From positions 1 through 30,837 of the forward strand of contig DHKE01000018.1 of NCBI GenBank assembly GCA_002404675.1: a stretch of 30,837 nucleotides of DNA. The letters are read 5' to 3'. Made by a program: the position numbers and the translations under genes. Of the stretch, positions 1,498-8,545 are shown in pieces; position 1 is the first letter of the stretch, and each line of letters begins with the position of its first letter. Source of the DNA: Porphyromonadaceae bacterium UBA4702 (GTDB taxonomy: Bacteria; Bacteroidota; Bacteroidia; Bacteroidales; Muribaculaceae). The notes under the pieces are model-generated. The model did no database searches and was not told the origin of the DNA. It saw only the letters and a list, made by a program, of their open reading frames with translations.

Positions 1498-2543
1498 TGA
1501 CAGACATACGGTTCATACCCGAATGGGAGGATTGCCGCTCCGTGCTGATGGCGTTGCCGCACGCCGGCACGGACTGGGCATACATGCTGGACGACATACG
1601 CCGCCAGTACCATGACATCATCGCCGCGCTCACCGCTGCCGGCGAACACGTAGTGCTGCTGTGCGACGACACCGACGACGCGGCATCGCTGCTCGCCGAC
1701 ATCAGCAGCGACGCCCTCGCGCTGGTACAATGCGAGTACAACGACACCTGGACACGCGACTACGGCCCGCTGACTGTGGTCAAGGACGGACGGCTGCGGG
1801 CACTCGACTTCGGCTTCAACGGCTGGGGGCTGAAATTCGCCTCTGACCGCGACAACCTCGTCAACCTGCGTCTGCACGAGCGCGGCATAACCGGCAGCGG
1901 CATATACCGCAACGAGCGTGACTTCACACTCGAGGGCGGCTCTGTCGAGACTGACGGACACGGCACTGTACTCACCACCTCGCGATGCCTCTGCTCCCCT
2001 AACAGGAACGGCGGCAAGTCGCGGCAGGAGCTGAACGAAGTCCTCGCCATGCGCCTCGGCGCAGACCATGTATTGTGGCTGGACTACGGCGCGCTCGACG
2101 GCGACGACACCGACTCGCACATCGACACCCTGGCACGCCTCTGCCCCGACGACATTATCCTCTTCACCGGCTGCCGCGACCTCGACGACCCGCATTTCGA
2201 GGAGCTGCTCAAGATGCGTGCGCAACTGTCGATGTTCCGCACCCCCGACGGACGTCCGTACAACCTCGTGGAACTGCCGCTGCCCCGCGCCGCTTACGAC
2301 CCCGAGGACGGCTCGCGGCTGCCCGCGACATACTCAAACTACCTGGTCACGCCGCGCAACGTGTTCGTCCCCACATACGACGACCCGATGAACGACACGC
2401 TCGCGTGCCAGACCATACGCATCGCCTTCCCCAGGCATAACATTGTCCCGGTGGACTGCCGCCAGCTGATACGCCAGCACGGCTCGCTGCACTGCGCAAC
2501 GATGCAGATACCCGACGGCATTTTCAATTACGACAAGATATGA
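1497..2543 (+). CDS. aguA: Agmatine deiminase
   Basis: A 348-aa member of the Porphyromonas-type peptidyl-arginine/agmatine deiminase family. It hydrolyses agmatine to N-carbamoylputrescine and ammonia in the cytoplasm. The N-terminal FIPEWEDCRSVLMALPHAGTDW is the family opening. Likely catalytic and guanidine-binding residues are Asp88 in WTRDYGP, Glu146 in LEGGSVETDG, His208 in DDTDSHIDT and the nucleophile Cys333 in GSLHCATMQIP. There is no signal peptide, which argues against a secreted peptidyl-arginine deiminase. It overlaps nadC by one base and aguB by four (ATGA), and pairing with aguB confirms the polyamine role. The residue assignments come from motif alignment to the known family, not from a structure. 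Confidence 0.95.
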   Translation: MTDIRFIPEWEDCRSVLMALPHAGTDWAYMLDDIRRQYHDIIAALTAAGEHVVLLCDDTDDAASLLADISSDALALVQCEYNDTWTRDYGPLTVVKDGRLRALDFGFNGWGLKFASDRDNLVNLRLHERGITGSGIYRNERDFTLEGGSVETDGHGTVLTTSRCLCSPNRNGGKSRQELNEVLAMRLGADHVLWLDYGALDGDDTDSHIDTLARLCPDDIILFTGCRDLDDPHFEELLKMRAQLSMFRTPDGRPYNLVELPLPRAAYDPEDGSRLPATYSNYLVTPRNVFVPTYDDPMNDTLACQTIRIAFPRHNIVPVDCRQLIRQHGSLHCATMQIPDGIFNYDKI

Positions 2544-3433
2544 CCGACAGCAAAATCATACGTACCGGAATAGTGCAACGCACTTTCAACGAGGACGTTG
2601 ACCTGAACCGTGCCGCCAACGTCACCGCGATAGAGAACCTCGCCGGCGACGGCGCAGACCTCGTGGTGCTGTCCGAGCTGCACGACTCCCTGTACTTCTG
2701 CCAGACAGAGGACGTGGACAACTTCGACCTCGCAACTCAGCTCTCTGGCGAGTTTGCCGACATATACGGCGCGGCGGCAGCCGACAACTCCGTGGTGCTC
2801 GTGGCAAGCGCGTTCGAGCGCCGCGCCCCGGGGCTGTACCACAACACCGCCGTGGTGTTTGACAGCGACGGGAGCATCGCCGGCACATACCGCAAGATGC
2901 ACATCCCCGACGACCCCGGTTTCTACGAGAAATTCTATTTCACCCCCGGCGACATGGGCTTCAACCCCATAGACACGTCGCTCGGGCGGCTCGGCGTGCT
3001 GGTATGCTGGGACCAGTGGTACCCCGAAGCAGCGCGGCTCATGGCAATGCGCGGCGCGGAAATGCTCATCTACCCCACCGCTATCGGCTGGAATCCAGAC
3101 GACCCCGCCGACGAGAAGGCACGTCAGCGCGAAGCATGGATAACGGTGCAGCGCGGACACGCCGTGGCTAACGGGCTGCCGGTGGTGTCGGTCAACCGGG
3201 TCGGCTTTGAGGAGGACAAGTCGCAAGCCACGTCAGGCATCGACTTCTGGGGCTCGAGCTTCGTCGCCGGGCCGCAAGGGGAGCTGCTGTTCATGGCGCC
3301 CGAGACGCAAAGCTGCCAGACCATCGTAGACATCGACACCGAGCGCACAGAGAACGTGCGCCGCTGGTGGCCCTTCCTGCGCGACCGCCGCATCGACGCA
3401 TACGACTGTCTGCGCAGCCGATACCTCGACTGA
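2540..3433 (+). CDS. aguB: N-carbamoylputrescine amidase
   Basis: A 297-aa nitrilase-superfamily hydrolase that converts N-carbamoylputrescine to putrescine, CO2 and ammonia, completing the agmatine route begun by AguA. The Glu-Lys-Cys triad is visible as Glu46 (LSELHDSLYF), Lys119 (TYRKMHIPDDP) and Cys156 (GVLVCWDQWYPE). The block PDDPGFYEKFYFTPGD is typical of carbamoylputrescine amidases rather than general nitrilases. The ATGA overlap with aguA indicates translational coupling. The last nine codons (CLRSRYLD and stop) are oddly repeated at 5024-5048 on the far side of an AT-rich two-gene insert. The gene itself is intact. Confidence 0.95.
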   Translation: MTDSKIIRTGIVQRTFNEDVDLNRAANVTAIENLAGDGADLVVLSELHDSLYFCQTEDVDNFDLATQLSGEFADIYGAAAADNSVVLVASAFERRAPGLYHNTAVVFDSDGSIAGTYRKMHIPDDPGFYEKFYFTPGDMGFNPIDTSLGRLGVLVCWDQWYPEAARLMAMRGAEMLIYPTAIGWNPDDPADEKARQREAWITVQRGHAVANGLPVVSVNRVGFEEDKSQATSGIDFWGSSFVAGPQGELLFMAPETQSCQTIVDIDTERTENVRRWWPFLRDRRIDAYDCLRSRYLD

Positions 3434-3434
3434 C
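3407..3434 (+). repeat. Left copy of the duplicated aguB 3' end (candidate attachment site)
   Basis: These 28 bases cover the end of aguB. They match 5024-5051 at 25 of 28 positions by direct reading, and weaker similarity continues into the next ~15 bases (AACATTAC against AACATCAC). All three mismatches within the coding part are synonymous (TGT/TGC, CTG/CTC, CGA/CGC). Confidence 0.75.
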
Positions 3435-3485
3435 CCCCCAACATTACTCGAAAGGATAAGAGACAGACTTCGTTTATATTAGGCC

Positions 3486-4118
3486 ATGTTTCATTCCAGA
3501 CATCAAGGCAACTCAACGCCTGCACTGAACACGTTTGGCGATTTCATTTTCTATGCATACTCCAACCTGCAAATGTTGATGTTTGCACTGAAAAATGGGA
3601 AGACGAAATTTGACCGCTCCTGTTATATGATGAGAGCGTATAATTTCAAGAGACTTCGGGATGGTTCACGAAAAATCCATGACCTGTACATAAACAACGT
3701 ATGGAAAATGGAAGCAGGACAATGCTGCTTCTATTGTGGCTCTTCTGAAGGGGAACTTTCCGTTGACCATATTTTCCCACGAAGCAAGAATGGAACAGAC
3801 ACAATTGACAATGTAGTCTTGTCATGTCAGTCGTGCAATTCATCAAAAGGCGACCTCGACTTGCTTGAATGGTACTCAGTCAGGCTAAAGGGATGGCCTC
3901 TTCCTTACATATTCGCATACTACCTCAAACACGTCTACTTATATGCGCTCAAAAATGAATTGCTCTCAAAGACATCTGATGAAATAGACAACATGTCATT
4001 GCCTTTCAAATACGAATACATTCCATTATCATATCCAAATTCTTATTTGGAGTTTCTGCAATGCAATTCCGACTCAACATCAAATAATACAACTGATACC
4101 GACTTAGACAATAAATAG
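3486..4118 (+). CDS. Stand-alone HNH endonuclease-domain protein
   Basis: A 210-aa protein with a complete HNH nuclease motif: the zinc-ribbon pair Cys81-x2-Cys84, the catalytic block VDHIFPRS (93-100) with Asp94-His95, Asn109, then Cys114-x2-Cys117-Asn118 followed by SSKGD. The ~75 residues before the domain and ~80 after it match no family I recognise. There is no signal peptide or membrane segment. The gene is much more AT-rich than its flanks and sits 22 bases upstream of another AT-rich gene, so the two probably form one transcript. HNH proteins of this form occur in restriction, phage and mobile-element settings. No methyltransferase or integrase accompanies it here. The start at 3486 is the first in-frame ATG after aguB and is moderately certain. 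Confidence 0.85.
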   Translation: MFHSRHQGNSTPALNTFGDFIFYAYSNLQMLMFALKNGKTKFDRSCYMMRAYNFKRLRDGSRKIHDLYINNVWKMEAGQCCFYCGSSEGELSVDHIFPRSKNGTDTIDNVVLSCQSCNSSKGDLDLLEWYSVRLKGWPLPYIFAYYLKHVYLYALKNELLSKTSDEIDNMSLPFKYEYIPLSYPNSYLEFLQCNSDSTSNNTTDTDLDNK

Positions 4119-4140
4119 TAAGACATCAAAAAGTCACCGC

Positions 4141-4980
4141 ATGAAAATAAACAAACGTCCTGTCATAACCTGGCTTCTACAAAATGACATCCACGAAATA
4201 AAAGAAAATATCAGCGTGCCGAATCTAACAAACCCAATGCACGCAGGTTATCTCGCTAACGGCATTAACGCACTAATAAACATACAAGAAGCAAATCCTC
4301 GATGGGGATTACCAGAATTGCTAATGCCCTCTTTTGAAAAAGTCATGAAAAAAAGCGCAAAAGCATTCCTTAAACTCGACCATCAACTATTTCAAGAGTT
4401 TTCAGAGACTGATGAGTGCGGTATTCTTATCACAAAAGAAACAGGCACAGTCGTTTATGGTTTTGGAGAAAACACTTTGTATGTTTGGATGTTCAAGGAA
4501 AGCAATGGCAAAAGTTTATTGTATATGTACTTCTATGCCGTTTCTACTGAAGACAATATTCGCCAAATATACACTTGGCCTTCCCTGAAAAATGACCCAC
4601 AAATCTTCCTCAATGCAAATAAGGACAACGATGACTTTTACTCGCAGATCACGAATCTGCTAATGGTATATTTAGCGGTAAAAAAGTATGCTCCAATAGA
4701 AACTATAATCGTGCCAACAAACAAAACAATGAAATTTGACAGCACCATTTTAGGCTATAAAGCAACTGAAAAGGTCAGAAATGAATCTGGGCAAGAGGTT
4801 ATTGTAATGGACTCCCGTTGGTTTACAAAAATTGTCAACGACAATGATATATTTGTTCGTGGTTTCTTCCGTATGCAAAATAAGAAGAACAAAGAAGGTA
4901 TCTGGTATAAGGAACTAATCTTCATCGATCCATTTATAAGACATGGTTATCGCCGCAATGCAAAAATGGAAGATGACTGA
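4141..4980 (+). CDS. Protein of unknown function, partner of the HNH gene
   Basis: I do not recognise this 279-aa protein. It has no signal peptide, no membrane segment and no catalytic signature I can name. Residues about 1-100 look alpha-helical, with WLLQNDIHEIKENI near the start and a lysine-rich stretch FEKVMKKSAKAF. The middle looks like a beta-rich cytoplasmic domain (GILITKETGTVVYGFGE, YVWMFKESNG). The C-terminus has an aromatic and basic tail, VRGFFRMQNKKNKEG then FIDPFIRHGYRRNAK, faintly like tails in phage and mobile-element proteins. Base composition is the lowest in the window (18 of 60 G/C at 4681-4740). It ends 43 bases before the second copy of the aguB 3' end, so it lies wholly inside the insert. 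A role as antitoxin, immunity or target-recognition partner of the HNH protein is possible but unproven. Confidence 0.8.
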   Translation: MKINKRPVITWLLQNDIHEIKENISVPNLTNPMHAGYLANGINALINIQEANPRWGLPELLMPSFEKVMKKSAKAFLKLDHQLFQEFSETDECGILITKETGTVVYGFGENTLYVWMFKESNGKSLLYMYFYAVSTEDNIRQIYTWPSLKNDPQIFLNANKDNDDFYSQITNLLMVYLAVKKYAPIETIIVPTNKTMKFDSTILGYKATEKVRNESGQEVIVMDSRWFTKIVNDNDIFVRGFFRMQNKKNKEGIWYKELIFIDPFIRHGYRRNAKMEDD

Positions 4981-5023
4981 ATTTTTCATCAAAAACGCAT
5001 TCCACTATTACTATACAAAGATT

Positions 5024-5051
5024 TGCCTCCGCAGCCGCTACCTCGACTGAC
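5024..5051 (+). repeat. Right copy of the duplicated aguB 3' end
   Basis: This is a second copy of the final aguB codons, reading CLRSRYLD and stop in the same orientation, with only synonymous differences from 3407-3434. No start codon or upstream reading frame belongs to it. It is therefore a remnant of an aguB allele or one arm of an attachment-site duplication. Confidence 0.75.
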
Positions 5052-5091
5052 ACCCGTTCAACATCACATTCGCATATCCCCGACCAGGCAA

Positions 5092-5111
5092 GGACACGGC
5101 GTGCCGTGTCC
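5092..5111. repeat. Perfect intergenic palindrome (REP-like)
   Basis: GGACACGG-CGTG-CCGTGTCC forms an 8-bp perfect stem with a 4-base loop. It sits between the insert and the convergent gene ending at 5183. A 17-base copy is at the window's left edge. It has no T-run, so it is more likely a dispersed palindromic element than an intrinsic terminator. Confidence 0.55.
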
Positions 5112-5182: not shown

Positions 5183-6640
5183 TCAGTGCTGTGACTGCTG
5201 TTCAAGCCAGTCGCGGCGCATTCGATCCAGCTCCTCATACATCTTGAAAATGCTGGCGGGCTTCAGTTCTTCTGCGACGTGGCCGTTTGGTGTGCCTATT
5301 TCCAGTTCCACCACGGCGTAATTACCGGCAGCTCCACAATCCACGTACCCGGTGTCAAACATCGTTTTGATTTCAGACAGCAGCTCAACGGCGTTTATAT
5401 CCATAAGGGCACTCACAACCAGCCCGGCGAAAGTTCCGTCACAGCAGCGCCTTGCCGGAAGGTTCTCGGTCATCATGTTGAGCAGCCGGCGGAACACTTC
5501 GAGGATTTCCCCACGCCGCGACGGCTCGTTGTACGCTATCATGGCAAGCGCGACAACCGCCTCATAGCGGAAGAACCACCACAGCCCCGGCTCGTAGAGG
5601 TATGCCTCTATGGCATCCGCATTGTCCTTGCCGCACGCATACAACGCCTGATGGACAATCATCGGCGTCAGCACATCTCCCAACAGGGCATCCATGAACG
5701 CTTCCGACTGGCGCATTATCTCCAGGACCGGCTCGATGCCAGCCGGTACTCCCAACGCCATAAACAGCAGCAAGGAGTGAAGTATCGAGTCGTTTTCAGC
5801 CTCGACCAGCACGCCGTCGTTGATGTCGCGGTATGTCTGTCCGATTTCATACATGACGATGCGGCGCAGGTCTTCAGCCACCTCGTCATGCGGCAACGCG
5901 AGTATGCGCTCTATCACCTCACGCGGCAGCACCATCATGTTATTCTCGCTGAACAATTCGTCTGCTATGAACTGATGCTTCACCTCCAGCGTCTGCGGAT
6001 ATTCAGGGTACTGGTACGTGTATTCCTCTGAGGAATTGTTTCCGTATTCATCATCGTCAAAATCGTCGTCCGGATCAAGCTCAAACAGGAAATCAAAGTT
6101 GTCTCCGAGCCGCTCCTTAAGAATCGGGATATACAGCCTCTCAATGCCGTCCGGGCCGACGATGAGGAAATGCTTTCCGTCCCTGCCGAACTCGTACTCT
6201 ATCAGCGGAACGTCATCCGTGTCCTCCTCGAGGACATAGCTTGCGGTGTAAAAATCCTTGCAAGGCTCGATGCCGGCCTCCTCGGCGAAACTGAGCGCAC
6301 CGTAGATGATGTTGTGCGCCTCCTCGTAGGTTATCTCCTCGTTGTCAAACCCGGACTTGTATTGCTGTAAGAATTCGTCAAACTCATAGTCAACCATGTT
6401 GTCACGGTAAAGCACAGCCTTCACTCCGAGGCAGAACGTGTCTACCAAGAACAGACCCAAGACAATGTTGCCGCTCGGGCGGACACGGGTCACGACAACA
6501 TCAGCCATCCCGGCTTCCTGCCAATCAGAATTTACATAACACTTGCCCAGCGGCAGCTGGCGTGCCTTCTCGCGCATGAACCGCGCCGGAGACAGGAAAA
6601 CCTGCGGCTGCGCCTTCTTCTTTGATTTCTTCTTTGCCAT
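5183..6640 (-). CDS. Cytoplasmic HEAT-like repeat protein of unknown function
   Basis: A 485-aa protein whose function I cannot name. It starts with a lysine-rich MAKKKSKKKA segment. Next comes a domain (about 15-90) with CYVNSDWQEAGMADVVVTR and NIVLGLFLVDTFCLGVKAV, a pattern I associate with uncharacterised Bacteroidota proteins often found near SEC-C or DUF1186-type sequences. An acidic linker follows (187-212, ELDPDDDFDDDEYG). The C-terminal half (about 225-480) is helical, with repeat-like segments such as RYEAVVALAMIAYNEPSRRGE that resemble HEAT repeats, suggesting protein-protein contacts. No signal peptide or membrane segment is present. A TACCTTTG -7 box lies about 55 bases upstream. 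It is transcribed alone, convergent with the HNH module and divergent from glutamine synthetase. Confidence 0.85.
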   Translation of the reverse strand: MAKKKSKKKAQPQVFLSPARFMREKARQLPLGKCYVNSDWQEAGMADVVVTRVRPSGNIVLGLFLVDTFCLGVKAVLYRDNMVDYEFDEFLQQYKSGFDNEEITYEEAHNIIYGALSFAEEAGIEPCKDFYTASYVLEEDTDDVPLIEYEFGRDGKHFLIVGPDGIERLYIPILKERLGDNFDFLFELDPDDDFDDDEYGNNSSEEYTYQYPEYPQTLEVKHQFIADELFSENNMMVLPREVIERILALPHDEVAEDLRRIVMYEIGQTYRDINDGVLVEAENDSILHSLLLFMALGVPAGIEPVLEIMRQSEAFMDALLGDVLTPMIVHQALYACGKDNADAIEAYLYEPGLWWFFRYEAVVALAMIAYNEPSRRGEILEVFRRLLNMMTENLPARRCCDGTFAGLVVSALMDINAVELLSEIKTMFDTGYVDCGAAGNYAVVELEIGTPNGHVAEELKPASIFKMYEELDRMRRDWLEQQSQH

Positions 6641-8414: not shown

Positions 8415-8440
8415 TCGCCCCTCCCCAACCCCGAAACACC

Positions 8441-8480
8441 GCGAGGGCGCATCTCAACCGATGCGCCCTCGCTTGTTGTT
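8441..8480 (+). terminator. Intrinsic-type terminator after glutamine synthetase
   Basis: A perfect 12-bp GC-rich stem (8441-8452 with 8461-8472) with an 8-base loop is followed by TTGTTGTT. It begins 27 bases after the glnA stop. Confidence 0.75.
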
Positions 8481-8545
8481 ACCATAAGCAACAGTCACAT
8501 TTGTCCTCGGCTTAACCCCGACTTGGTAGAGACACGGCTGCGCAT

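Follow-up and report, generated by a model that had tools for sequence, protein, structure and literature searches.

Two allelic aguB 3' ends flank an AT-rich HNH endonuclease-like gene and its partner in a Muribaculaceae genome

The window analysed here, a stretch of 30,837 bases from Porphyromonadaceae bacterium UBA4702 (Muribaculaceae), carries the 3' end of aguB twice. The two ends are distinct alleles, each with its own intergenic start, spaced 1,617 bases apart, and the DNA between them is foreign in composition and has an abrupt joint on its right side. A new observation is that, within the species, AguB hardly varies before residue 286 and then ends in one of 8 versions of its last residues. 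We tentatively suggest that the gene for an HNH endonuclease-like protein and its partner gene were imported together with the aguB end of a close relative, most likely by recombination anchored in aguB, and that the old end was displaced in the process. Gene-end replacement is the natural reading of this footprint, which is a clear one, concerns a housekeeping gene in a Bacteroidales lineage of the gut and has population-level support; from it we infer the direction of the event (the second copy being the resident one), its route and the passive status of the cargo.

Read directly from the sequence, the first copy (3407-3434) is TGTCTGCGCAGCCGATACCTCGACTGAC and the second (5024-5051) is TGCCTCCGCAGCCGCTACCTCGACTGAC. 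The initial annotation had described an aguB end repeated at 25 of 28 positions beyond a ~1.6-kb AT-rich insert, with only synonymous differences, and both statements hold. Identity is indeed 25/28, and the best ungapped score between the flanks of the two-gene stretch (1,200 bases on each side) is 22.0, compared with a mean of 10.98 (sd 1.10) and a maximum of 14.0 in 200 mononucleotide shuffles. The three coding differences (TGT/TGC, CTG/CTC, CGA/CGC) all fall in third positions and are synonymous, an outcome with P = 0.010 for three random substitutions in these 27 nt. The ungapped repeat covers 32 nt (3407-3438 and 5024-5055; 28/32, 88%), and in a MAFFT alignment the likeness runs 14-17 nt beyond the stop, across a 3-nt gap, as far as CAACATTAC/CAACATCAC (3439-3447 and 5059-5067), so that some intergenic DNA must have been duplicated along with the coding end. 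The left joint of the insert is seamless, and the right joint lies abruptly at codon 290. The first T of the second copy may be a chance match, this position being occupied by Gly, Val or Asp in other alleles.

Chance, or a repeat common in this genome, can be discarded as the source of the second copy: within the window the 27-mer, allowing up to 3 mismatches, is found at these two places only, and 100 shuffles yielded no occurrence. Judged by repeat length, a simple misassembly through the repeat would be unlikely, the longest exact run common to both copies being 13 nt, below usual assembly k-mers.

Table 1. Features of the window around the two aguB 3' ends
Feature	Position	Strand	Remarks
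aguB	2540..3433	+	Complete, 297 aa; carbon-nitrogen hydrolase of the N-carbamoylputrescine amidase family
aguB 3' end, first copy	3407..3447	+	Codons 290-297, stop and intergenic start; allele now in use
HNH endonuclease-like gene	3486..4118	+	210 aa; PF01844, E 1.6e-13
Partner gene	4141..4980	+	279 aa; broad AT-rich accessory family
aguB 3' end, second, displaced copy	5024..5067	+	Has its own intergenic start
Palindrome	5092..5111	.	8-bp stem; 41 nt past the second stop
Right-flank gene	5183..6640	-	485 aa; weakly DUF1186-like, E 0.0019, 18.2 bits (cut-off 22)

The aguB product matches PF00795 (E 2.3e-50) and TIGR03381 agmatine_aguB, the latter at 271.4 bits, under the curated cut-off of 410.25. 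In 500-base windows the GC content is 0.60-0.64 in aguB and 0.36-0.42 in the insert, which measures ~1.6 kb and holds two ORFs on the same strand with a gap of 22 nt between them. As the initial annotation had stated, no integrase, transposase or relaxase is encoded inside: the ORF list and profile searches give the HNH and partner genes as its only main ORFs, without a recombinase, integrase, relaxase or coupling gene.

The catalytic core of the HNH protein is intact (H95, N109, N118, C81, C84, C114 and C117 are invariant in a 28-row alignment, A3), and nuclease activity is predicted. By profile, its best solved relative is 4h9d (E 9.5e-14), and many phage HNH endonuclease families match it as well. 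What it shares with 4h9d, IscB and the HNH domain of Cas9 is the HNH core, and the likeness is limited to that core. The match to the IscB model (E 1.2e-12) reaches 47.7 bits, far from the NCBIfam cut-off of 175 expected of a full-length IscB, and the match to a PtuB-like model is weak (E 2.1e-8) and again covers the core. A Septu system, in which PtuB lies next to the ATPase PtuA, does not fit: the partner is without a PADLOC or Pfam match at E <= 1. A word-based search of 5.8 billion proteins returned 23 HNH relatives; genomes with a relative number 5/397 in the nearest family (the one in G065 partial in length, E 4.3e-10) and 3/223 among those drawn across the order. Two of the relatives are solitary and AT-rich (GC 0.36 and 0.39) and stand 3' of prs-like (L087) and nitroreductase-like (L088) genes, these names, like radA-like below, being our own reading of the translations. 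Other neighbours include a regulator-like ORF and an Eco57I-type restriction-modification (RM) gene (L090). At L090 (G183, contig C46) the HNH relative lies directly 3' of the Eco57I-type methylase gene, with a large helicase-like gene, so read from its sequence, adjoining, and the neighbourhood is a possible defence cluster.

Pfam, PADLOC and NCBIfam gave no match at E <= 1 for the partner protein. Its family is broad: of 835 candidate proteins, 580 reach E <= 0.001 (120 of them listed), and relatives occur in 24/397 genomes of the nearest family. The loci inspected have a GC content of about 0.30-0.42 and varied neighbours: a SacI-like restriction gene (L092), a NotI-like gene and a methylase-like ORF (L091), a CoiA-like gene (L103) and, 5' of the partner relative, a radA-like gene (L098). 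An AF2 model of the protein (mean pLDDT 83.3) found no convincing match among solved structures, and its best match in a viral library is an uncharacterised phage protein. Relatives of both genes together were found in none of the 397 genomes, drafts that may miss genes, so that within this set the two do not form a conserved operon; this disposes of a conserved two-gene module for the genomes searched. Clusters very close to both proteins do occur in public contigs (P0121 for the HNH protein in 11, P0001 for the partner in 30, the longest of these measuring 232,633 bases).

Population-level support comes from the protein itself. A search with AguB returned a tight, near-identical group from the species, or species complex, to which the window belongs; in it residues 10-285 are at least 97.4% identical across 21 sequences and the end takes 8 versions: DAYDGLRSRYLD (7 sequences), DAYDVLRNRYLD (4), DAYDCLRSRYLD (3, among them the window and P0179, an entry seemingly identical with the window), DAYDGLRSRYLE (3), plus the singletons DAYDDLRSRYLD, DAYDVLHNRYLD, DEYGDITRRYIDR and ENYGDITRRFID. 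The DEYGDITRRYIDR and ENYGDITRRFID tails lie on short contigs and may be chimeric. With these two sequences dropped, 12/276 sites vary in the body and 4/12 in the tail (Fisher p = 0.0024). Variation is concentrated in residues 286-297, and within this tail, the same two sequences apart, it is confined to the last eight residues. The contigs behind the AguB proteins P0144-P0160 reach 171,834 bases. The GLRSRYLD, GLRSRYLE and VLRNRYLD tails are on contigs >75 kb, the Cys tail of P0144 is on contigs of up to 16,342 bases, and the Asp and VLHNRYLD tails are on contigs of 7,827 and 8,522 bases. Among eight species clusters with at least 4 sequences (P0248 and P0253 were also dropped from this test), six have no tail excess and one other has it (P0237, P0254, P0259 and P0260; four sequences, p = 0.0001). 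Codons 286-297 of the window have a mean nucleotide identity of 52% with those at 80 aguB loci from 79 nearest-genus genomes. Judged from these alignments, the aguB end would be either exchanged more than the rest of the gene or under locally relaxed constraint, and the low identity between species makes the latter a serious candidate explanation of the tail's point differences.

In the course of events that we propose, a segment from a close relative, carrying an aguB 3' end and two orphan AT-rich accessory genes, would have entered behind aguB. On its left side the segment would have joined by recombination within aguB, which would leave the gene ending in the donor's synonymous last codons, and on its right side, beside the resident gene's codon 290, it would have joined with no long stretch of homology. 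The resident's last codons, with their own intergenic DNA, would have ended up 1.6 kb farther downstream, reduced to a non-coding remnant, the outcome to be expected of homology-facilitated illegitimate recombination. The HNH gene and its partner would be passive cargo, probably of a defence type or selfish, transcribed behind aguB. Recombination of this kind has been proposed for displaced genes and gene 3' ends at Vibrio T6SS and Rhs loci (PMC5361080). There, at effector-immunity and Rhs loci, incoming DNA likewise uses a homologous anchor, and what used to lie downstream ends up behind it; here, by comparison, the gene is metabolic and not a toxin gene, nine codons are displaced, and the encoded tail is unchanged.

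Several observations favour the import. Both copies code for the same eight residues, which are absent from the listed relatives' tails, whereas the window's tail codons share a mean of 52% nucleotide identity with those of the nearest genus, so the donor was probably close kin. The concentration of AguB variation in the tail and the lack of a recombinase among the ORFs of the insert also speak for the import. Codon use offers modest evidence that the second copy would be the resident end and the first the incomer: in seven window genes the codons of the second copy are preferred (TGC 0.89, CTC 0.50, CGC 0.66), and those of the first are rarer (TGT 0.11, 5/47; CTG 0.37; CGA 0.02, 3/154), an order that a coarser ORF set, a spurious ORF included, reproduces. 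Homologues of the cargo genes stand behind other genes without clear repeats (L087, L088, L098). The model expects an intact gene whose end diverges, cargo behind it and a remnant of the old end leading into native DNA. Gene, cargo and remnant are present in the window; the second copy would be the resident end and the right flank would be native, and the gene on that flank is itself accessory in the genus (19/111 genomes, sometimes with two separate matches). Against the import, the duplicate does not reach beyond the last nine codons, a confinement typical of att sites at gene ends, and a random joint would more often leave a longer one; the donor order, aguB-HNH-partner without a second end, was found at none of the aguB loci examined; the tail point differences could also stem from relaxed constraint; and such illegitimate events are rare according to the same paper (PMC5361080).

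A search of relatives for the footprint found it nowhere else. Aligning related downstream regions for second aguB ends, the check put forward in the initial annotation, gave no second direct end at any of 159 other aguB loci (best direct match 14.0, compared with 22.0 in the window), which speaks against a general hot spot behind aguB in the genus. These are 80 regions from 79 of 82 genus genomes with an aguB match (G389 gave two; G300, G371 and G375 were left out) plus 79 of 80 further loci (L032 was too short), and they are loci rather than independent genomes, some, such as G001 and G002, being in both lists. Downstream DNA starts at 381 bases, with a median of 5,957, and reaches at least 1,600 bases, the spacing found in the window, at 151/159. 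Inverted matches scoring 18-20 at three aguB loci (L179, L211, L213) may be hairpins. The two contigs of G389 (C2 and C50; L177 and L178) present almost identical aguB neighbourhoods in a single assembly, probably an assembly redundancy. The genes 3' of aguB vary among species of the nearest genus, a hydrolase-like and ligase-like pair, in our reading, being frequent.

Flanking repeats were equally elusive around relatives of the cargo genes, with best scores of 9.0-14.5 and none above 14.5 at 27 testable loci (7/8 HNH and 20/26 partner places; L084 and L107, with too little flank, L102, with 142 bases downstream, and L112-L116, fragmentary partner matches, were left out). Five of them (L088, L092, L096, L173, L174) score 0.5 or 1.0 higher than the best of ten shuffles of the same locus, and this small excess is treated as noise. 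A crude motif scan, run with no positive control, covered 1,353 ORFs from the window and from 160 loci of relatives and found none that was tyrosine-recombinase-like, and IMG/VR gave no exact match to the core pattern or to the upstream coding pattern.

Among the alternatives, the one that deserves most attention, though we consider it unlikely, is a decayed, CIME-like integrative element which kept both att sites at the aguB 3' end, restored the gene with its own copy and was served by a tyrosine or serine recombinase encoded elsewhere. The anatomy fits: direct repeats that include a gene 3' end bracket the cargo, just as CIMEs at fda, rpsI and rpmG of Streptococcus salivarius carry 1.2-13 kb of cargo without recombination genes between att repeats at housekeeping 3' ends (PMC7563491). 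Such an element would account for a nine-codon duplicate better than the import does, duplicate and tail variation both being limited to the aguB end. The Dickeya dadantii prophage phiDda3 is reported to be flanked on its left by an N-carbamoylputrescine amidase gene (PMC6385640), so genes of this kind can border integrated elements elsewhere. Unlike the published CIMEs, however, the insert lies in a Bacteroidales host, no ICE or IME was seen in the relatives' loci examined, and the repeat is imperfect, with four mismatches in 32 nt, an indel just beyond and no exact run longer than that given above. The element would also need a recombinase, of which there is none in the insert and none by the uncontrolled motif scan; the relatives' aguB loci examined lack a second end, and no clear flanking repeats accompany the homologues of the cargo genes at other places. 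The literature matches listed contain no account of the aguB 3' end as a Bacteroidales insertion site, which, given their limited journal coverage, says little. Homing is improbable. Here the HNH nuclease would cut an uninvaded aguB end, and repair would copy in the cassette with an uncuttable gene end. The invariant core with its four cysteines and the many matching phage families speak for it, and in phages free-standing HNH homing genes are likewise small, patchily distributed and set beside conserved genes, with nuclease genes near essential genes flanking exchanged segments (PMC10448857). Yet clean homing leaves no duplicate, the present gene is chromosomal and paired with an unrelated one, and the HNH relatives adjoin unrelated genes, with no conserved nuclease target among the loci inspected, aguB included.

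There is equally little to recommend a two-gene defence or toxin-antitoxin operon, an HNH effector with its regulator, exchanged as a unit. The short gap and common strand would suit it, as would the weak PtuB-like match and the presence of relatives of either gene near SacI-like (L092), NotI-like and methylase-like (L091) and Eco57I-type (L090) RM genes, but the two genes never share one of the 397 genomes and the partner lacks a PADLOC match. Hardly to be expected, too, is that the aguB 3' end is a dedicated cassette site, at which recombinase-free units with their own last codons would replace one another, driven by an encoded nuclease, here the HNH protein, or a helper in trans, the tail versions recording past occupants. 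If such repeated cargo turnover were true, the aguB end would offer a simple system for how accessory genes settle harmlessly behind core genes, and one could ask whether solitary HNH nucleases drive such settling.

The initial annotation had read the footprint as that of a mobile unit which replaces the gene end. The replacement is supported, by two functional-looking alleles flanking the insert and by the tail variation; a recurring mobile unit is not supported, with the two genes apart in 397 genomes, 27 loci without a clear repeat and 159 aguB loci without a second end, and within the family either gene is found on its own with no gene end displaced. The other reading offered there, that recombination brought in a cassette, is no worse a fit and may be a better one, and the footprint resembles an import more than an established mobile element.

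The palindrome GGACACGGCGTGCCGTGTCC lies in the gap that separates the displaced aguB end from the right-flank gene. Its fold is not significant (z -1.08), and it is absent from the terminator-like list of a scan of the window; it is possibly the former end of the aguB transcript. GC-rich palindromes likewise lie 3' of the HNH gene at L087 (about 8440-8530). In G106 (contig C2), two halves of a partner-family gene (L115 and L116) lie ~1.7 kb apart with identical ORFs between them, and the gene seems to have been split by an insertion with ORFs that we read as transposase-like.
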